From NCBI GenBank assembly GCA_017447815.1, contig JAFSMS010000108.1, positions 1-44,274 on the forward strand: a DNA stretch of 44,274 nt, written 5' to 3'. The position numbers were made by a program, and so were the translations under genes. Shown piece after piece: positions 10,284-19,891 of the stretch. Source of the DNA: Bacteroidales bacterium (GTDB lineage: Bacteria > Bacteroidota > Bacteroidia > Bacteroidales > UBA932). The notes under the pieces were generated by a model. The model saw only the letters and a program-made list of their open reading frames with translations. It was not told the origin of the DNA and ran no database searches. Positions within the stretch are counted from its first letter, which is position 1; the number at the start of each line of letters is the position of its first letter.

Positions 10284-11363
10284 TTACCGCACCTTCGAGT
10301 CGCAGTACCAGCAGCGAAGGACGCCGTCGTCTCCGCGGCGGAACTTGTGCGGCGCTTTCTCGTTGTTGCAGATGCACTTGCGGTTGGTGCAGCGGGCCGT
10401 GGGGTCGGTGACGGGTTCCTCGTCGGCCGGCATGCCGTGCTCGGGGTCGTCCTTCCATTCCAGGAGTTTGACGATCAGGGCTTCCCGCACGAACTTGCCG
10501 TTCTCCACCTGGCGGAAATAGGCGGCACGCGGGTCGGCATCCACCTCGGTGAGGATCTCATTCACGCGGGGCAGCGGATGGAGGACGGCCATCTTCTCCT
10601 TGGCAAGGGACATGCGGGCGGCGTCCAGGACGAAACTGTCCTTCACGCGGTCGAACTCGTCCTCGTCGAGGAAACGCTCCTTCTGCACGCGGGTCATGTA
10701 CAGGACATCCAACTGAGGCATCACTTCCTCCATCGTCTCCACTTCGCGGTAGGGGATGCCGGTACGCTCGCAAACGTCGTGCTTGATGTAGTCCGGCAGT
10801 TTGAGTTCCGGGGGGGCGATGAGGACCACTTTGATGTCCTTGTAGCGGGAGAGGGCCTTGATGAGGGAGTGGACGGTCCGGCCGAAGCGGAGGTCTCCGC
10901 AGAAGCCGATGGTGATCCCGTCGATATGTCCGAGTTCGCGCTGGATGGTCAGCAGGTCGGTCAGCGTCTGGGTCGGATGGCTGTGAGAGCCGTCGCCGGC
11001 GTTGATAATCGGGACGCGGGATACTTCTGTGGCATAGAGTTGCGCACCCTCGATGTGGTGGCGCATGGCGATGACATCGGCAAAGCAGCCGACGACGCGG
11101 ACGGTGTCCTGGACGGTCTCTCCCTTGCTCACGGAGGAGTTCCGGGCGTCGGAGAAACCGAGGACGTTGCCGCCCAATTCCATCATGGCCGAGGTGAAAC
11201 TCAGGCGGGTGCGGGTGCTGGGCTCGTAGAAGAGCGTGGCCAGCTTTTTATGGGACATGCTGCCTTGATAGCGTTCGCGGTGGGCGATGATGTCCTGTGC
11301 GAGGGAAATGATTTCGTCGGTCTCCTGCTTGGTCAGGTCTATCGGGTCGATGAGGTGTTTCAT
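10284..11363 (-). CDS. pyrB: Aspartate carbamoyltransferase catalytic chain with C-terminal PyrI-type zinc module
   Basis: 359 residues. PyrB makes carbamoyl-aspartate from carbamoyl phosphate and aspartate. Residues 1-310 are a normal catalytic chain: [11 protein letters not shown] (carbamoyl-phosphate site, STRT at 49-52), [21 protein letters not shown], and HPLPRVNEI. The last 35 residues hold C325-x4-C330 and C351-x2-C354, the spacing of the zinc site of the regulatory chain PyrI (C-x4-C, then C-x2-C). The PyrI N-terminal nucleotide-binding domain is absent here, and no separate pyrI is in the window. It is the last gene of the pyr operon, 11 bp after pyrE. The loss of allosteric control by nucleotides is an inference. 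Confidence 0.93.
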
Positions 11364-11374
11364 ATGGTTTTGGT

Positions 11375-12010
11375 TTATGATTGTTTAATCCAACTTTCAT
11401 CCTGGGGGTTGTCGCGGAAGGCGAGGATACGTCCCTTCCAGTCCGCTGTGATGCGTCCCTCTTCCACGGCCACGTCCACGAGGACGTCCAGGTTGCACAG
11501 GGAATGGTTTTCCGTATTCGCGGCGGCGATGCGTTCCAGGCCGCGTTTCATCCCGTAAGTGAAGATGGAGACGATGCCCAGCACATCGGCACCGGCCTCC
11601 CGAAGGGCTTCCACCACTTCGATGGAACTGCCGCCGGTGGAAATCAGGTCTTCGATGACGACGACCTTCGTGCCCGGGGCCATTCTGCCCTCGATCCGGT
11701 TCGTCCGGCCGTGGGTCTTGGCCTCGCCGCGGACGTAGCCCATGGGCAGGTCCAGGATGGTGGCGGTGATGGCGGCGTGGGCGATTCCGGCCGTGGAGGT
11801 GCCCATCAGCATCTCGCAATCCGGATAGTAACGCTGTACGAGCCGGGCGAGTCCGTTCTCCACCTGCTCGCGCACCCGGGGGGCGGAGAGGGTGAGGCGG
11901 TTGTCGCAGTAGATGGGACTCTTGATGCCGCTGGCCCAGGTAAACGGCTCTTCGGGGCGCAGGAACACGGCGCCGATGGAGAGGAGGGAGGAAGCGATCT
12001 GTCTTTCCAT
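11375..12010 (-). CDS. pyrE: Orotate phosphoribosyltransferase
   Basis: 211 residues from [17 protein letters not shown]. PyrE transfers ribose-5-phosphate from PRPP to orotate, giving OMP. The type I PRTase motif VVVIEDLISTGGSS is intact, and the N-terminal PFTWASGIKSPIYCDNR is the typical orotate-site region. The start codon overlaps the pyrF stop as TAATG, pointing to translational coupling. A seven-codon in-frame upstream extension exists but lies inside pyrF and is not preferred. Confidence 0.96.
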   Translation of the reverse strand: MERQIASSLLSIGAVFLRPEEPFTWASGIKSPIYCDNRLTLSAPRVREQVENGLARLVQRYYPDCEMLMGTSTAGIAHAAITATILDLPMGYVRGEAKTHGRTNRIEGRMAPGTKVVVIEDLISTGGSSIEVVEALREAGADVLGIVSIFTYGMKRGLERIAAANTENHSLCNLDVLVDVAVEEGRITADWKGRILAFRDNPQDESWIKQS

Positions 12011-12711
12011 TATATGAATTCTTTTAAGCATTTCTCATACGCCGCGACAGGGTCCGGGGCGGCGGTGATGGGGCGGCCTACGACGATGTAGTCCGAGCCG
12101 ATTTCCCGGGCGTCGGCGGGGGTGGTGATGCGCACCTGGTCGTCCGCGGCGGCGTCGGCAAAGCGGATGCCGGGGGTGACGGCGAGGAATCCTTTTCCGC
12201 AGGCTTCCTTGACCAGGCCGGCTTCCCGGGGGGAGCAGACGACCCCGTCCAGCCCGGCTTCCTTCGCGTTCAGGGCATATTGGGCCACCGTCCGGCGAAG
12301 ATCCGTGCCGATCAGCAGTTCCTTCTGCATGACCTCTTCCGACGTGGAAGTGAGTTGGGTGACGGCAATCAGGAGCGGCCGCGTTCCGTCCTCCCGGGTC
12401 AGCCCTTCCAGGGCGGCGCGCATCATCGCGACGGTGCCGGAAGCATGGACATTGACCATGTCCACGTCCAGGCCGGAGAGCACCCGCATCGTTTTCTTGA
12501 CGGTGTTGGGAATGTCGTGGAGTTTGAGGTCCAGGAAGATCCGGTGTCCGCGGGCCTTGATCTCGCGGACGATGGAGGGACCTTCGGCATAATAAAGTTC
12601 CATGCCGATTTTCACAAAAGGTTTCCGTCCCTCGGGGAAACGGTCCAGGAATTCCAGCGTGGCTTCACGGCTGGCGAAGTCGCAGGCGATGATGACGTCT
12701 CGGTGGGTCAT
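12010..12711 (-). CDS. pyrF: Orotidine 5'-phosphate decarboxylase
   Basis: 233 residues from [14 protein letters not shown]. PyrF decarboxylates OMP to UMP, the last step of the pathway. The catalytic Asp/Lys network is visible in [16 protein letters not shown], with further motifs [17 protein letters not shown], and the phosphate-binding C-terminal VTPGIRF and YIVVGRPIT. The length is typical of the bacterial group I family. The start overlaps the pyrD stop as ATGA. A longer frame upstream runs through pyrD and is not real coding. Confidence 0.96.
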
Positions 12712-13619
12712 ACGGTTCCGATGATTTCTTGTAAGGTATTGATGTTCAATTCGTCCATGAGGACGGGGAGTTCTTCGATGATTTCGGGGCAGGCCAGCGG
12801 GTTGCGAAGGTTCTCCGCGCCCACCTGGACGGCCGTCGCACCGGCCATCATCATTTCGATGACGTCCGCGGCCGATGCCACACCGCCGCAGCCCATGACG
12901 GGAATCCGGCAGGCGTGCGCCACCTGGTAAACCATCCGGAGGGCGACGGGGAAGACGGCCCGGCCGGAAAAACCGCCCATCTTGTTGGCGATCACCGGCT
13001 TGCGCCGATGAATGTCGATCCGCATCCCGAGGAAGGTGTTCACGAGCGTGAGGCCGTCGGCCCCGGCATCCTCGCAGGCGCGGGCGATGGAGACGATGTC
13101 CGTCACGTTCGGACTCAGTTTGATGAAAACGGGTTTCTGGCAAACGGCTTTCACCGTGCGTGTTACCTCGGCGGCCGATTCGGCGGAAGTTCCGAAAGCC
13201 ATGCCTCCGTTGTGTACGTTGGGGCAGGAGATGTTGACTTCGATGAGGTCGATGCCCCCGCATGCATCGGCCCTCGCGCAGCATTCCCGGTATTCGTCCA
13301 GGGAGAAACCGCTGATGTTCGCGATGATGCAGCCGTCATAGACCTTCCGGAGCGAAGGGACTTTCTCATTCACAAGCACGTCGATGCCCGGATTCTGCAG
13401 GCCCACGGAATTGATCATCCCGCCGGGGCACTCCGCGATGCGGGGCGTCGGATTTCCGTAACGCGCCTCCCGCGTCGTCCCCTTGAGGGAGATGCCGCCG
13501 AGGACGTTGAGGTCCATCTCATCGGCCAGTTCCAGCCCGAAACCGAAGGTTCCGCTGGCCGGAATCACCGGGTTTTTGAGTGTCAGGCCGCACAGGCCCA
13601 CGGAGAGATCCTTTACCAT
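12708..13619 (-). CDS. pyrD: Dihydroorotate dehydrogenase, class 1B catalytic subunit
   Basis: 303 residues from [18 protein letters not shown]. It oxidises dihydroorotate to orotate on FMN. The active-site base is the Cys in [13 protein letters not shown], which marks a class 1 enzyme. The adjacent pyrK shows this is the NAD-linked 1B type, a soluble heterotetramer rather than the quinone-linked membrane form. The FMN phosphate loops are seen in [14 protein letters not shown] and [10 protein letters not shown]. The start overlaps pyrK by 7 bp. Confidence 0.95.
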
Positions 13620-14341
13620 AGCAGTTCCTCCTTCTTGAACACCGGACCGTCCTTGCACACGCGCCGGGGACCGTTTTTCGTCTGGATGCTGCAGCCGTAG
13701 CAGAAGCCGGCGCCGCAGCCCATGCGCTCCTCCAGCGAGGCTTCACCGGGCCCCTCCAGCGTGCCGCACACGACTTTCATCATGACCATCGGCCCGCAGG
13801 TATAAAAGAAATCGTAGGACGGACGGGCCGCGGCGATCGCATCGGTGACGAAGCCCTTTACGCCCGCGGAGCCATCGGCCGTTGACAGCAGGACTTCGTC
13901 GCAGACCGCCCGGAATTCCTCGGCCAGGATGATTTCCCCGGCCTTGTTGAACCCCAGCACGGCCGTGACCTTTTTCCCGCGCGCCTTCAACTCCTTGGCC
14001 AGCAGGTACAGCGGGGGAACCCCGAGTCCGCCGCCCACAAGCAACGCCTCTTCCCGGCACGCTTCCGGATGGAATCCGTTCCCCAGGCCGGTCAGCACTT
14101 CCAGTTCCGTCCCGGGCTGCATCTGAGACAGCGCCTTCGTCCCTTCTCCCACAACCTTGTACACCAGCGTCAGTTTCCCGTCTTCCCGGTCACAGACGGA
14201 CAGTGGTCTCCGGAGGTAGAATCCCGGGATGGCGATGTCCACGAACTCGCCTTCCACATCGGCCTTGCCCGCCAAAACCAAGCGATAGGTCTTGGGCGCG
14301 AGGAGCGTATTCTCCGCGATCGTATAAAGGCTTTTATTCAC
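13613..14341 (-). CDS. pyrK: Dihydroorotate dehydrogenase electron-transfer subunit PyrK
   Basis: 242 residues starting with GTG. PyrK carries FAD and a 2Fe-2S cluster and passes electrons from PyrD to NAD. The FAD-binding motif is [11 protein letters not shown], the nucleotide-binding fold begins [16 protein letters not shown], and the cluster ligands lie in [14 protein letters not shown] plus the Cys of RRVCKDGP. The GTG start overlaps the carB stop as GTGA. Its position directly before pyrD matches Gram-positive pyrK-pyrD pairs. Confidence 0.94.
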
Positions 14342-17300
14342 TTTTTGTATTCTTCGTCAATGGTGGAAATCCCCAGCGTAATCTCTTCCAGCACATCCAG
14401 GAGAACCCGGACGGTCTCGAGGGCCGTGAAGATGGTGACATTGTTCTCCACCGCGCAGCGGCGGATGCCGTAGCCGTCCAAGTGGCTGGATTTCTGGTTC
14501 AGGTCGATGGTGTTGATGACATATTTCACGTGTCCCTTGCGGATGGCCTGGTAAATCTCGTCGCTGCCTTCCCCGAGTTTCCGGAGCATCTTGGTGCGGA
14601 TGCCGTGCTCTTTCAGGAAGGCCGCCGTGCCTTTGGTGGCCTCGATGTTGAAGCCCAGGTTGTAGAACCGGCGGATGAGCGGAAGGGCGTCCTCCTTGTC
14701 CTTGTCGGCGATGGTGGCGAAGACGGTCCCGTAGGACTTGATGTCCATGCCGGAGGCCTGCAGGGACTTGTACAGGGCACGGTTCAGGGAATCGTCATAG
14801 CCGATGGCCTCGCCCGTGGACTTCATCTCCGGGGAGAGATAGGTGTCGATGCCCTTGATCTTTCCGAAGGAGAAGGCCGGCGTCTTGACAAAGTGGCGCT
14901 TGCGCTCCGGGAAATAGACCTCCGTGATGCCCTGCTCCTTCAGGGAGTGGCCCAGCATCACCCGCGTGGCGATTTTTGCCATCGGGATGCCCGTGCTCTT
15001 GGAAATGAACGGAACGGTGCGGGAGGAGCGGGGGTTGACCTCGATCACGTACACGTTCTCGTCGCTGTCCACGATGAACTGGATGTTGAACAGGCCCACG
15101 ATGCCGATGGCCTTTCCGAGTTTCACCGTATCGTCGATGATCTCCTGCTTCACCTTCGGGCTCAGGCTGAAGGAAGGATAGACGCTGATGGAGTCGCCGG
15201 AGTGGATGCCGGTGCGCTCCACGTGTTCCATGATGGCCGGGATGAAGACGTCCGTCCCGTCGCAGATGGCATCGACCTCGGTCTCCTTGCCCTGGATGTA
15301 CTTGTCCACGAGGACAGGGGAGTTCTCGTTGATTTCCACCGCGTTGTGGAGGTAGTGGCGAAGGGTGTCCTCGTTGCCGACGATCATCATCGCACGGCCA
15401 CCGAGTACGAAACTCGGACGCACGAGGACCGGGTAGCCGATGTCCTCGGCCGCCTTCACGCCGTCCTCCACGTTGGTGACGGCATGGGCCTTGGGCTGGC
15501 GGATGCCGGTCCGGCGCATGATCTCCTCGAAGAGTTTGCGGTCCTCGGCATTGTCGATGGCCTCCAGGCCGGTGCCGATGAGCGGAACGTTGAACTCGGA
15601 GAGGGGACCGGCGAGGTTGATGGCCGTCTGGCCGCCCAGGGAGACGATGACCCCGTCCGGACGCTCGAGCGAGATGACGTTCATCACATCCTCCGTGGTG
15701 AGCGGCTCGAAATAGAGTTTGTCGGAGACGGTGTAGTCCGTGGAGACCGTCTCGGGATTGTTGTTGATGATGATGGCCTCGTAACCGGCCTCGCGGATGG
15801 CCCAGATGGCGTGGACCGTGGAGTAGTCGAATTCCACGCCCTGGCCGATGCGAATGGGGCCGGAGCCCAGCACGAGGATCTTCTTCCGCTCGCTTCGGAC
15901 CGACTCGTTCTCCTGTTCGTAGGTGGAGTAGAAGTACGGGACGTAAGTGTCGTGCTCGGCGGCGCAGGAGTCGATCATCTTATAGACCGGGACGATGCCG
16001 TGCTCGAAGCGGAAGCGGATGATGTCGGCCTCCGTCTTTCCCCAGAGCTGCCCGATGAAGCGGTCGCCGAAGCCCATGCGCTTGGCTTCCCGGAGGATTT
16101 CCGCGTCGCCCGGGGCGGCCTTCACGCGGCGTTCCATCCGGACGATGTTGTAAATCTTCTCGAGGAAAAGCCAGTCGATCTTCGTGCGGTCGTAGATGCG
16201 GGACAGGTCGATGCGAAGGCGCAGAAGCTGCGCGATGGCATGGATGCGGTCGTCGGTAGGGGTGGAGATGTAGTCGAGGAGTTTTTCCTCGGACCAGTCG
16301 TCGAACTTTTTCTTGTGGATGTGGCAGCAGCCGCTTTCCAGGGAACGCATCGCCTTGAGGATGCTTTCTTCGAGGGTGCGGCCGATGCTCATCACCTCGC
16401 CCGTCGCCTTCATCTGGGTGCCGAGTTCGTTGGAAGCCTCGCTGAACTTGTCGAAGGGGAAACGGGCCACTTTGGCGACGACATAGTCGATGGCCGGCTC
16501 GCAGCAGGCGGGAGCGCCGGCCACCGTAATCTCGTCCAGGGTCAAGCCCACGGCGATTTTCGCCGTCACGCGGGCGATCGGGAAGCCGCTGGCCTTGGAG
16601 GCGAGGGCGGAGGAGCGGGACACGCGCGGGTTGACCTCGATGATATAGTACTTGAAGGACAGCGGGTCCAGGGCGAACTGGACGTTGCAACCGCCTTCGA
16701 TCTTGAGGGCGCGGATGAGTTTCAGGGCGCTGCAGCGCAGCATCTGGTACTCCTTGTCGGTGAGGGTGAGGGCGGGCGCCACGACCATGGAGTCTCCGGT
16801 GTGGATGCCCACGGGGTCGATGTTCTCCATCGAGCAGATGGCGATGGCGGTGTCATTGCGGTCGCGCATCACCTCGAACTCGATCTCCTTGTAGCCCTTG
16901 ATGCTCTTTTCCACCAGCACTTCGCCGACGGGGGAGAGGGCGAGGGCGTTCCGCATCATGTCGCGGAGTTCCTCTTCGTTGTAGGCGAAACCGCCGCCCG
17001 TGCCGCCCAGCGTGAAGGCCGGGCGCAGGATGACCGGGTAGCCGATCCGCTCCGCCGCCGCCACGGCCTCCTCTACGCTGTAGGTGATTTCGGAAGGGAT
17101 GACCGGCTCGTCGATCGACAGGCACAGTTCCTTGAAGAGTTCGCGGTCCTCCGCCTTCTCGATGCCCTGGAAGGACGTGCCCAGGATTTCCACGCCGCAT
17201 TCTTCCAGGACGCCCTTCTTGGCGAGCTGGACGGCGAGGTTCAGGCCGGTCTGGCCGCCGAGGCCGGGCACCAGGGCGTCGGGACGCTCGTAGCGGATGA

Positions 17301-17529
17301 TTTTGGCGACATATTCCAGGGTGAGGGGTTCCATATAGACCTTGTCGGCCATCTGGGTGTCCGTCATGATGGTCGCGGGATTGGAGTTCACGAGGATCAC
17401 CTCGTACCCCTCTTCCTTGAGGGCGATGCAGGCCTGCGTGCCGGCATAGTCGAATTCTGCCGCCTGGCCGATGACGATTGGGCCGGAGCCGATCACGAGC
17501 ACTTTCCGGATATCTTTTCTTCTAGGCAT
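14338..17529 (-). CDS. carB: Carbamoyl-phosphate synthase large subunit
   Basis: 1063 residues, the usual length. CarB makes carbamoyl phosphate from bicarbonate, two ATP and ammonia; the ammonia normally arrives by an internal tunnel from CarA. The two homologous ATP-grasp halves start with [21 protein letters not shown] (residue 10 on) and [20 protein letters not shown] (about 550 on). The C-terminal MGS-like allosteric domain covers about 930-1063. All synthetase motifs seen look intact, in contrast to its partner CarA. Overlaps carA by 8 bp and pyrK by 4 bp. Confidence 0.96.
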
Positions 17530-18604
17530 TCTTCGGGCCCTCCATCATTTGGATAAACTTGTCAAAAAGGTTCACGTAGTCCAGCGGACCGGGAGCGGAT
17601 TCCATGTGGAACTGGATGCCGAAGACCTTGTCTTCCCGGTTCTCGAATCCCAGCACAAATCCTTCGGGGACAAGGACGTGTGTCGGAGTGAGCGCCGTCC
17701 CTTCCAAGCTGTCGAAACGGTAGGTCTGGTTGAGGACGGCGATGTGGATCCGGCCGGTGGCGAGGTCGCGCACCGGGTGGTCTCCGTGCATGCCGCAGCC
17801 CATCGGGGCGAGAGCGGCGCCATATTCCAGGCCGATGGCTTCCATGCCCAGGCCGATGCCCAGCACGGGGACGCGGCCCTTGATCTCGGCGAACAGGGTG
17901 CGGATTTCCGGGGCCTCCAGGGCCGAAACGGGACCGTTGGACAGAAGGACCCCGTCCGGATTGAACGCGAGGATGTCCTTCGCCGGGGTGTTGTACGGAA
18001 CCACGGTCACGTTGCAGCCGCGCTGCTTCAGGCAGGTGAGGATGCTTTGCTTGACGCCGCAGTCCACCGCCACGACATGGAAGCGGTGGTTCGAGGTGCG
18101 GGTGACCCAGCGCTTGCGGCAACTCACGCGGCGCAGGAGGTCCTTCGGCCGCTGCGTCGCCGCAATGAGGGCGAGGGCTTCCTCCCGGGGCATGTCCGCC
18201 TCTACGATAGCGGCCATGGGCCGGCCGGTCTCACGGATGATTTTGGTGATCATCCGGGTGTCCACGCCGCTCAGGCAGGGGATTCCGTGGTCCTCCAACT
18301 CCTCTTCCAGGGTTTTGGTGGAGCGGAAGTTGCTGGGCGTGTCGCAGCATTCGCGGACGATGAGTCCGCCGATGTCCGTAGAACGGGATTCATAGTCTTC
18401 GTCCGCGATGCCGTAGTTCCCGATGAGGGGGTACGTCATCACGACGATCTGTCCGGCGTAGGAGGGGTCGGAAATGATTTCCTGATACCCGACCACGGAT
18501 GTGTTGAACACCAGTTCGCAGACTTTGCGGCAATCGGCTCCGAAGCCGGTCCCGTAAAATTCCTGGCCGGTTTCCAGCACCAGTTTTTTCTCGGGTCTGA
18601 TCAT
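17522..18604 (-). CDS. carA: Carbamoyl-phosphate synthase small subunit with degenerate glutaminase site
   Basis: 360 residues, full length. CarA normally hydrolyses glutamine and feeds ammonia to CarB. The N-terminal small-chain domain is normal ([33 protein letters not shown]). The class I amidotransferase domain is not: the nucleophile motif GICLGHQ reads GIGLGMEA, with Gly251 (codon GGC at 17852-17854) in place of Cys. The glycine loop SNGPGDP reads SNGPVSAL (222-229), and the QNHG motif reads LNQT. His333 and Glu335 of the triad remain (QFHMES). The reading frame is intact, so it is probably a structural or ammonia-passing subunit without glutaminase activity. Overlaps pyrC as ATGA. Confidence 0.93.
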
Positions 18605-19716
18605 ATTGTCAAGTTGTTATGATATACTGTTTTTCCTTCCATGACGGTTCTGAGGATCCTTCCGTACACCTTCGCCCCTTCGAACGGCGTGGCGCGCCCC
18701 ATGGAGGCGAACTCGCTGCTGCGGATGATATAAGGAGTGTCCAGGTCCACCTCGACCCGGTCCGTCGGCGCTTCCGGGAGCCGGAAGATGCGGCGCGGGG
18801 CGGTGGACAGCACTTCCACCAGGCGTTCCAGGCCGATGCGGCCGGTTTTCACCAGGCGGGTATAGAGCACCGGGAATGCCGTTTCGAGCCCTACGATGCC
18901 CATCGCACTGCCCGCAAGGCCCCTGGATTTCTCTTCGGCCGAATGCGGTGCGTGGTCGGTGGCGACGACATCGATGGTCCCGTCGGCCAATCCTTCGATC
19001 AGCGCCTCGCGGTCCCCGGCGGTCCTGAGCGGCGGATTCATCTTGAAACGTCCGTCCTCCTGAAGGTCGTCCTCGCAGAGCGCAAGATAATGGGGGGCGG
19101 TTTCGCAGGTCACTTTGACCCCGCTCCTTTTGGCCTGGCGGATGATGTCCACGCTCTCGGCGCTTGAAATATGGCACACGTGGTAGCGGCAGCCCGTCTT
19201 GGCCGCCAGTTCCACGTCACGGGCAATCTGTCCCCATTCGCTTTCGGAGCAGATTCCTTTGTGTCCGTGTTCCCGGCAGTAGCGTCCGTCGTGGATGTAA
19301 CCGCCCCGCAGGAGGGTGTTGTCTTCACAGTGGGCGGCGATGATGACGTCTTCGGCCGCCGCCGCGCGCATCGCTTCCAGCATCATCTCCCGGCTCTGGA
19401 CACCGCTTCCGTCATCGGAGAAGGCGACGCACCGGCCCTTGAGGGCATGGAAATCGACCAGTTCCTTTCCAAGCCGTCCGATGGTGATGGACCCGTAGGG
19501 GAGTACCCGGATCAGGGCGTCCCGGTCGATGGCATCCTGCTCCACGGCCAGATGTTCGGGGGAGTCCGGCACCGGATTGAGATTGGGCATCGCGCACACG
19601 AGCGTATATCCGCCGCGCGCCGCGGCCTGACTGCCGGTGCGGATGGTTTCTTTCCAGGTCTGTCCCGGTTCACGGAAATGTACGTGAAGGTCGGCGAATG
19701 CGGGTAGCGTAATCAT
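18601..19716 (-). CDS. pyrC: Dihydroorotase, class I, with short N-terminus
   Basis: 371 residues. It closes carbamoyl-aspartate to dihydroorotate. Metal-site motifs are [10 protein letters not shown], the class [25 protein letters not shown] and ATDHAPHS. Most class I enzymes have about 50 residues before the HxH motif, forming half of the composite beta domain. Here the protein starts [14 protein letters not shown], so those strands are missing, although the C-terminal counterpart ([19 protein letters not shown]) is present. The frame is open further upstream but runs through the terminator and past the promoter. First structural gene of the pyr operon; the stop of a 44-codon leader ORF overlaps its ATG. 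Confidence 0.94.
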
Positions 19717-19847
19717 GCTCCGATAATAAAAAAAAGACAACCCGAAGGGCTGCCAATAACAAATGGAAATGGATGAATAGGGAAACGGGTGACATCCTCG
19801 GCTCTGCCGATACAGACTTTCCGGGATATGAGGGTGTTCCGCATCAT
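19713..19847 (-). CDS. Predicted 44-residue leader peptide of the pyr operon
   Basis: An ATG-ATG start at 19847, about 7 nt after the predicted transcription start, opens a frame of 44 codons ([14 protein letters not shown]... ending GCLFFIIGA). It stops with a TGA that overlaps the pyrC ATG as ATGA. The ORF translates through a U-rich tract (19755-19786, 17 U in 32) and through the whole terminator and its U-run. E. coli pyrBI has the same plan: a 44-codon leader read through U-rich RNA and the attenuator. No homology of the peptide itself is claimed. That it is translated is inferred. Confidence 0.6.
19728..19754 (-). terminator. Intrinsic terminator in the pyrC leader (attenuator)
   Basis: On the minus strand GGCAGCCC, loop UUC, GGGUUGUC form an 8-bp stem with two G-U pairs, followed at once by eight U residues (19728-19735). 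It ends 11 bp before the pyrC ATG and downstream of the predicted promoter, so it can only act on the pyr operon transcript. A small hairpin (19798-19810, UCGGC/GCCGA) lies upstream, before the U-rich tract, and could act as a pause site. Confidence 0.8.
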
Positions 19848-19858
19848 TTCTCGGACTG

Positions 19859-19891
19859 CAAAGGTACTGCTTTTTGGGAAAAAACTCCAAA
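19859..19891 (-). promoter_or_regulatory. Predicted pyr operon promoter, Bacteroidota type
   Basis: Minus strand reads TTTG (19888-19891), 21 bp, TACCTTTG (19859-19866), matching TTTG/TAnnTTTG. The 314-bp gap between pyrC and purE holds this promoter, the leader ORF and terminator at 19713-19847, an A-tract dyad (19877-19884 with 19892-19899) around the -33 box, and the divergent purE promoter. Confidence 0.78.

Follow-up and report, generated by a model that had tools for sequence, protein, structure and literature searches.

A candidate translation-coupled transcription attenuator ahead of the UMP operon of a Bacteroidales bacterium

Organization of the pyr operon

The window analyzed here, i.e., the whole stretch of 44,274 nucleotides, belongs to a 2.5-Mb draft genome (G000) that is 86% complete and is part of a very large genus, possibly Cryptobacteroides. 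Its nearest named relatives are MAGs that carry the label Bacteroidales or Bacteroidia, many of them from gut and rumen. Eight genes are arranged head to tail on its minus strand in the order pyrC-carA-carB-pyrK-pyrD-pyrF-pyrE-pyrB, with purC next (10216-9251; family match and ORF) and purE located upstream, divergent from the pyr operon. pyrC (18601..19716) codes for a dihydroorotase of 371 aa (TIGR00857, 366.5 bits), and the rest of the UMP operon, from carA to pyrB, occupies positions 10284..18604 according to family matches and ORFs, with pyrF at about 12711-12010. The first-pass annotation of this DNA had placed a whole UMP operon behind a leader, and the family matches of the eight pyr genes confirmed this.

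Features of the pyrC leader

The region upstream of pyrC contains, on the minus strand and in this order, a promoter, the start of a short ORF, a U-rich tract and an intrinsic terminator. As read from the sequence, the promoter (19859..19891) consists of TTTG (19891-19888), a 21-nt spacer and TACCTTTG (19866-19859), i.e., it is of the -33/-7 type of Bacteroidota; a sigma-70 promoter scan of the window leader region returned no match, as expected for the phylum. The promoters before two other genes of the same genome, which we take to be those of 16S rRNA and rplS, resemble it. Because of these similar blocks, the pyr promoter looks strong and constitutive, which would leave room for control after initiation. 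Since TAnnTTTG sits at -12 to -5 in Flavobacterium (PMC9723704), +1 is predicted near position 19854, 7 nt before the ATG at 19847.

This ATG, which is followed by a second one at 19844, opens a leader ORF of 44 codons plus TGA (135 bp; 19713..19847) that continues without interruption through the terminator, its TGA overlapping the ATG of pyrC (19716). The 32 nt before the terminator stem (19755..19786) include 17 U and represent the proposed UTP-dependent pause region. The candidate attenuator is an intrinsic terminator (19728..19754) composed of GGCAGCCC-TTC-GGGTTGTC, which forms a stem of 8 pairs (19754-19736; -10.4 kcal/mol), and of a U8 run (19735-19728) whose end at 19728 lies 11 nt before pyrC. 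A scan of 501 nt on both strands revealed two terminator-like sites, vs 0.5 in shuffles. The promoter, the 44-codon ORF, the U tract, the terminator and the TGA/pyrC overlap described in the first-pass annotation were confirmed, and all coordinates given there proved correct.

Conservation of the leader within the genus

This PyrC was found at E 1e-100 in 130 of 400 genus genomes. We read 124 loci, leaving out six others, and placed 123 of them at the DLHVH motif; L183, which gave no anchor, was omitted. A terminator was detected by scan upstream of pyrC in 66 of the 123 loci, 55 of which were retained as having a promoter, an ORF and a terminator. Those removed were L091, L188 and L214 (no promoter match), L168 (tRNA), six loci of the in-gene class described below, and L211, a manual exclusion despite an ORF that ends at the stem. 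The ORF, the U tract and the terminator recur together in the 55 retained loci out of 123, and again in a second genus, as the first-pass annotation had expected for the ORF and the hairpin in relatives. A further 54 of the 123 loci with the short PyrC show neither the leader form nor the in-gene form in our scans, a count that includes L101 and L210, in which leaders with a mismatched stem were recognized by eye. A strict scan of 800 kb of the relative G144 (about a third of the genome) for the promoter-leader-terminator-gene layout matched only pyrC and one tRNA, indicating that this layout is no general habit in that genome.

The position of the ORF relative to the stem was compared with that in shuffled leaders, in tests that overstate independence, as the leaders are related. 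The ORF reaches the stem (at least -15) in 54 of the 55 leaders, window included, vs 27.4 in dinucleotide shuffles (sd 3.6, max 38), a comparison that favors the real data, for which we chose, among the ATGs in the first 25 nt, the one opening the longest ORF and then kept this ATG in the shuffles. For the other two frames, the corresponding counts are 8 and 27 out of 55. In 47 leaders the stop codon is located between -15 and +16 nt relative to the stem (shuffles, 14.5; sd 2.6, max 23), and the ORF runs on past the stem in 7, among them that of the window; none of the 55 stop codons precedes the stem by more than 17 nt. An ORF ending at pyrC, which the first-pass annotation had expected to be kept, is therefore not the rule. 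As the ORFs of the 55 leaders range from 6 to 45 or more codons, the match of the 44 codons of the window to pyrBI looks like a coincidence. The -7 box is separated from the stem by 81-110 nt in 44 of the 55 leaders, and 8 others form a short class with a spacing of 39-59 nt.

In an alignment of 44 leaders, 98.7% of the cells of the terminator helix are paired, with some compensatory changes. The same alignment points to a possible small hairpin 5' of the U tract, UCGGC-AGA-GCCGA in the window (19798..19810), with 73.5% of cells paired and some two-sided changes. Mid-leader RNA structure was nevertheless rejected, since the leaders show no excess stability (mean z -0.09 over the 55) and this hairpin, of 6 bp in the alignment, is too weak to claim. 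Taken as a whole, the window leader has no unusual structure (z -1.26; 25 of 200 shuffles equally stable).

Stronger constraint on nucleotides than on the peptide

In the closest group of eight loci, the first 20 codons of the leader have a pS of 0.085 and a pN of 0.055, vs 0.437 and 0.064 in pyrC. Three smaller groups have leader pS values of 0.07-0.11, vs 0.52-0.70 in pyrC, and pN is at or above pS in two of them. The pN/pS ratio of the first 20 codons, based on few sites and on codon counts summed over overlapping pairs, amounts to 0.65 (eight loci), 0.82 (three loci) and above 1 in two single pairs. Since leader pS is far below pyrC pS and pN is close to pS, selection on the leader, as judged from these comparisons, acts more on the nucleic acid than on the peptide. 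Variability at synonymous sites of the leaders L085-L087 and L114-L118 is about one-fifth of that in pyrC.

A CATA motif is found 18-42 nt after the -7 box in 31 of the 55 leaders (shuffles, 7.1; max 15), with the window copy at 19830-19827. The conservation of synonymous sites and the presence of this motif indicate that something besides the ORF and the U tract is under constraint in the genus leaders. The motif, or the conservation of the leader more generally, may correspond to a pause element. As regards the expectation that the terminator would be kept while the peptide varied, the helix is kept and the peptides look unrelated between the two genera, but within the genus and its subclades the leader is partly conserved at the nucleotide level.

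The U-rich tract

When the 55 leaders are divided into 10-nt bins, U averages 0.56 and 0.52 in the two bins next to the stem, compared with 0.23 and 0.16 between -30 and -50. Over the last 20 nt, U reaches 0.54, vs 0.23 for 33 terminators from 800 kb of G144 (61% GC), a control set that includes the pyr terminator of that contig itself (Mann-Whitney p 8e-12). In the 55 leaders, UUU and UUC together make up much the same share of triplets whatever the frame (14.7, 14.2 and 14.4%); selection therefore sees nucleotides, not codons. In the short-leader class (8 loci, 39-59 nt), the tract is mostly absent, with 6-13 U in 32 nt.

Related layouts beyond the genus and within pyrC

In a second family, the genus g115 has this PyrC in 23 of 23 genomes. 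Of the 14 g115 leaders resolved by script, 13 have their stop codon between -6 and +15 relative to the stem, the sole miss (L336) having a misassigned promoter; 8 of the 23 were left unresolved by the strict stem scan but have, by eye, a mismatched stem and a U run, and L340 gave no anchor. The U fraction rises here as well, with values of 0.42, 0.52 and 0.49 over the last 30 nt of 17 leaders (g115 and three from other MAGs). By eye, the g115 peptides look unlike those of the first genus. Comparable leaders were also recognized by eye in MAG loci labelled Alistipes, Prevotellaceae, Bacteroidaceae and Muribaculum, that of Muribaculum being short; L074, a MAG locus inspected in the same manner, has no such leader.

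Across the order, we scanned the upstream regions of 87 pyrB loci, setting aside the genome of the window, L263 and L272. The layout is present in 18 of them. Of 21 promoter-terminator pairs, which belong to 19 loci, 20 have an ORF that extends to the stem (shuffles, 9.4; sd 2.0, max 16), and such a pair is absent at the other 68 loci. The pyrB leaders are only mildly U-rich (0.34). The 220 nt upstream of pyrB gave no promoter or terminator match in ten genus genomes outside the 130-genome PyrC set (L309-L312, L314-L319); L313 of the same pyrB set had no anchor.

A different arrangement, in which the promoter directly precedes pyrC and a hairpin lies inside its first 30 codons, is present at 14 loci chosen by eye (L205, L206, L213, L215, L216, L217, L095, L096, L098, L154, L165, L200, L202 and L212). 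The in-gene hairpins have z values of -5.4 or lower in 12 cases and of -3.4 and -0.4 in the other two; at L098 and L154 the stem differs in sequence but is fully paired. Each hairpin is followed by just 3-5 U, which makes termination at these sites less certain. The in-gene hairpin sits after a conserved S-Y-G (TCATA(C/T)GG) near the pyrC start.

Proposed mechanism and alternatives

The leader most likely acts on the UMP operon as a translation-coupled transcription attenuator, sensing UTP in the manner of pyrBI, a reading to which we assign a probability of about 0.7. We infer that the operon would be regulated in the cell as follows. RNA polymerase would synthesize a leader of about 100 nt, and translation of the ORF would begin a few nt from the RNA 5' end. 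When UTP is plentiful, the polymerase would cross the U tract fast, and the terminator hairpin would form behind it and stop transcription before pyrC. At low UTP, the polymerase would slow in the U tract and the first ribosome would close up, its footprint near the hairpin preventing formation of the terminator, such that transcription would read through into pyrC-carAB-pyrKD-pyrF-pyrE-pyrB. Such a switch would work without a regulator protein, a ligand-binding RNA or an antiterminator. The parts and their spacing fit masking of the terminator by the ribosome when the polymerase slows in U-rich DNA. Work in E. coli (PMC4824070) found that termination dropped from about 90% to less than 10% when a stop codon was placed 5 bp ahead of a terminator; beyond 27 nt the effect had vanished and termination was maximal. 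The pyrBI-like reading put forward in the first-pass annotation gains support from the recurrence of the ORF, the U tract and the terminator in relatives, from the frame-independent U tract and from the lack of an antiterminator, of an Rfam family and of a PyrR over cut-off in our searches.

The same attenuator might instead respond to a signal other than UTP, namely the general speed or initiation of translation (e.g., through ppGpp or ribosome supply), with the U tract only aiding the pause or the terminator. This would agree with the short-leader loci, which keep the ORF and the terminator mostly without the tract, with the mild U enrichment of the pyrB leaders of the order, and with the resemblance of the promoter to rRNA-type promoters. 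However, the U enrichment is specific relative to the other terminators of a 61% GC contig and independent of frame, it is present in two genera, and the genes of the operon make UMP; we regard a non-UTP signal as rather unlikely. A further explanation holds that the ORF serves the translation of pyrC by re-initiation at the overlapping ATGA, the terminator being a fixed brake without regulation. The overlap of the TGA of the window ORF with the pyrC ATG is in line with it, as is PMC4833913, which proposes that translation re-initiates downstream of leader genes in bacteria and gives 11-14 bp as the peak distance for Bacteroidetes. Nevertheless, in 47 of the 55 leaders the ORF stops no more than 16 nt from the stem base, ahead of both the terminator end and pyrC, and this explanation appears improbable.

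TnaC and SpeFL are leader peptides that stall the ribosome, and a nascent peptide of that kind could do so here when a pyrimidine-related metabolite is present, which might explain the leader blocks conserved within genus subclades. The peptide is nonetheless not favored as a sensor, given that pN is close to pS in its first 20 codons, that the peptides look unrelated between genera, with no shared residue pattern by eye, and that they comprise just 6-10 residues at some loci; we consider such sensing very unlikely. Attenuation by amino acid codons, e.g., those of Phe, is suggested by the frequency of UUU/UUC in the tract and by the many leader peptides that are Phe-rich near their ends. The Phe-codon signal was rejected on the equal frequency of UUU/UUC in all three frames, Phe being counted by frame and in-frame runs of other amino acid codons being judged by eye only. 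An antiterminator was likewise not found, with duplex mean z values of 0.30 and -0.18, and the product of the operon is UMP, all of which leaves codon-based control hardly credible.

A riboswitch is not indicated either: the mean z of the 55 leaders is close to zero, as given above, the RNAalifold consensus of 44 leaders consists of the terminator only, and the Rfam search of the window and 20 loci returned no family, although it had no positive control, six Clostridia-type loci also returning none. PyrR-dependent attenuation was discarded on the same Rfam result and on the number of PyrR matches over cut-off, 0 of 1 for the genome of the window and 0 of 100 for genus genomes. Weak sub-cut-off matches in 48 of these 100 genomes were read as other phosphoribosyltransferases.

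Comparison with known attenuators

As in E. coli pyrBI, with its leader gene pyrL, the window has a leader ORF that begins close to the promoter and enters or crosses an intrinsic terminator, with pyr genes next. pyrBI also has a U-rich pause tract. Its terminator is located inside a 135-bp leader gene (PMC4824070), and the window ORF is also 135 bp long. Tight coupling across pyrL is needed for read-through (PMC5021804), and the UTP-dependent reiterative transcription reported for pyrBI (PMC6245113) has no counterpart that we could see in the window start sequence. Unlike pyrBI, the window leader belongs to another phylum, has another type of promoter and a near-leaderless ORF start, and precedes a whole UMP operon headed by pyrC. 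Most of the 55 leader ORFs end at the hairpin, whereas that of pyrBI runs on.

The pyr operon of Bacillus is controlled by PyrR-dependent attenuation at a terminator before the pyr genes. A terminator precedes the pyr genes here as well, but without a PyrR over cut-off in 100 genus genomes, an Rfam match or an antiterminator. The attenuators of amino acid operons function by codon-specific stalling and alternative hairpins, neither of which was seen in the pyr leaders. Those described for Flavobacterium in PMC9723704 share with the pyr leaders the phylum and a short leader ORF before the operon. Leader-peptide attenuation in Bacteroidota is treated there for amino acid operons and, in PMC7366714, in general terms only. 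We found no description of such a pyr attenuator in the literature on the pyr genes of Bacteroidota, as searched in open-licence papers, with most subscription papers outside the scope.

More tentatively, and with the odds somewhat against it, we propose that Bacteroidales evolved, independently of enterics, UTP-sensing switches based on a race between ribosome and polymerase before their pyr operons, and in one branch inside pyrC itself, where translation of pyrC would control transcription of the same gene without any leader peptide (14 loci). If true, tight transcription-translation coupling would act as a working metabolite sensor in Bacteroidota, and nucleotide sensing through the relative speeds of polymerase and ribosome would have arisen convergently outside the enterics, where it was worked out. 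The hosts are gut and rumen bacteria, for which the attenuator would provide a direct, portable assay of tight coupling in Bacteroidota. The stop-at-hairpin design and the version within pyrC would also reveal which parts of the pyrBI layout are essential.

The PyrC type found at these loci is rare in the order, where it was present in 4 of 393 genomes at E 1e-90, that of the window included. A viral_contigs scan with the PyrC of L075 as query returned no relative. Many PyrC relatives lower among the best 80 matches carry the MAG labels Oscillospiraceae or Clostridia, and lateral transfer of this PyrC type is therefore possible. The PyrC of the window is shorter than the usual dihydroorotase by about 45-50 N-terminal residues, its profile match beginning at position 53 of 428; this short form is common to close relatives, and a longer form is present in other members of the genus.
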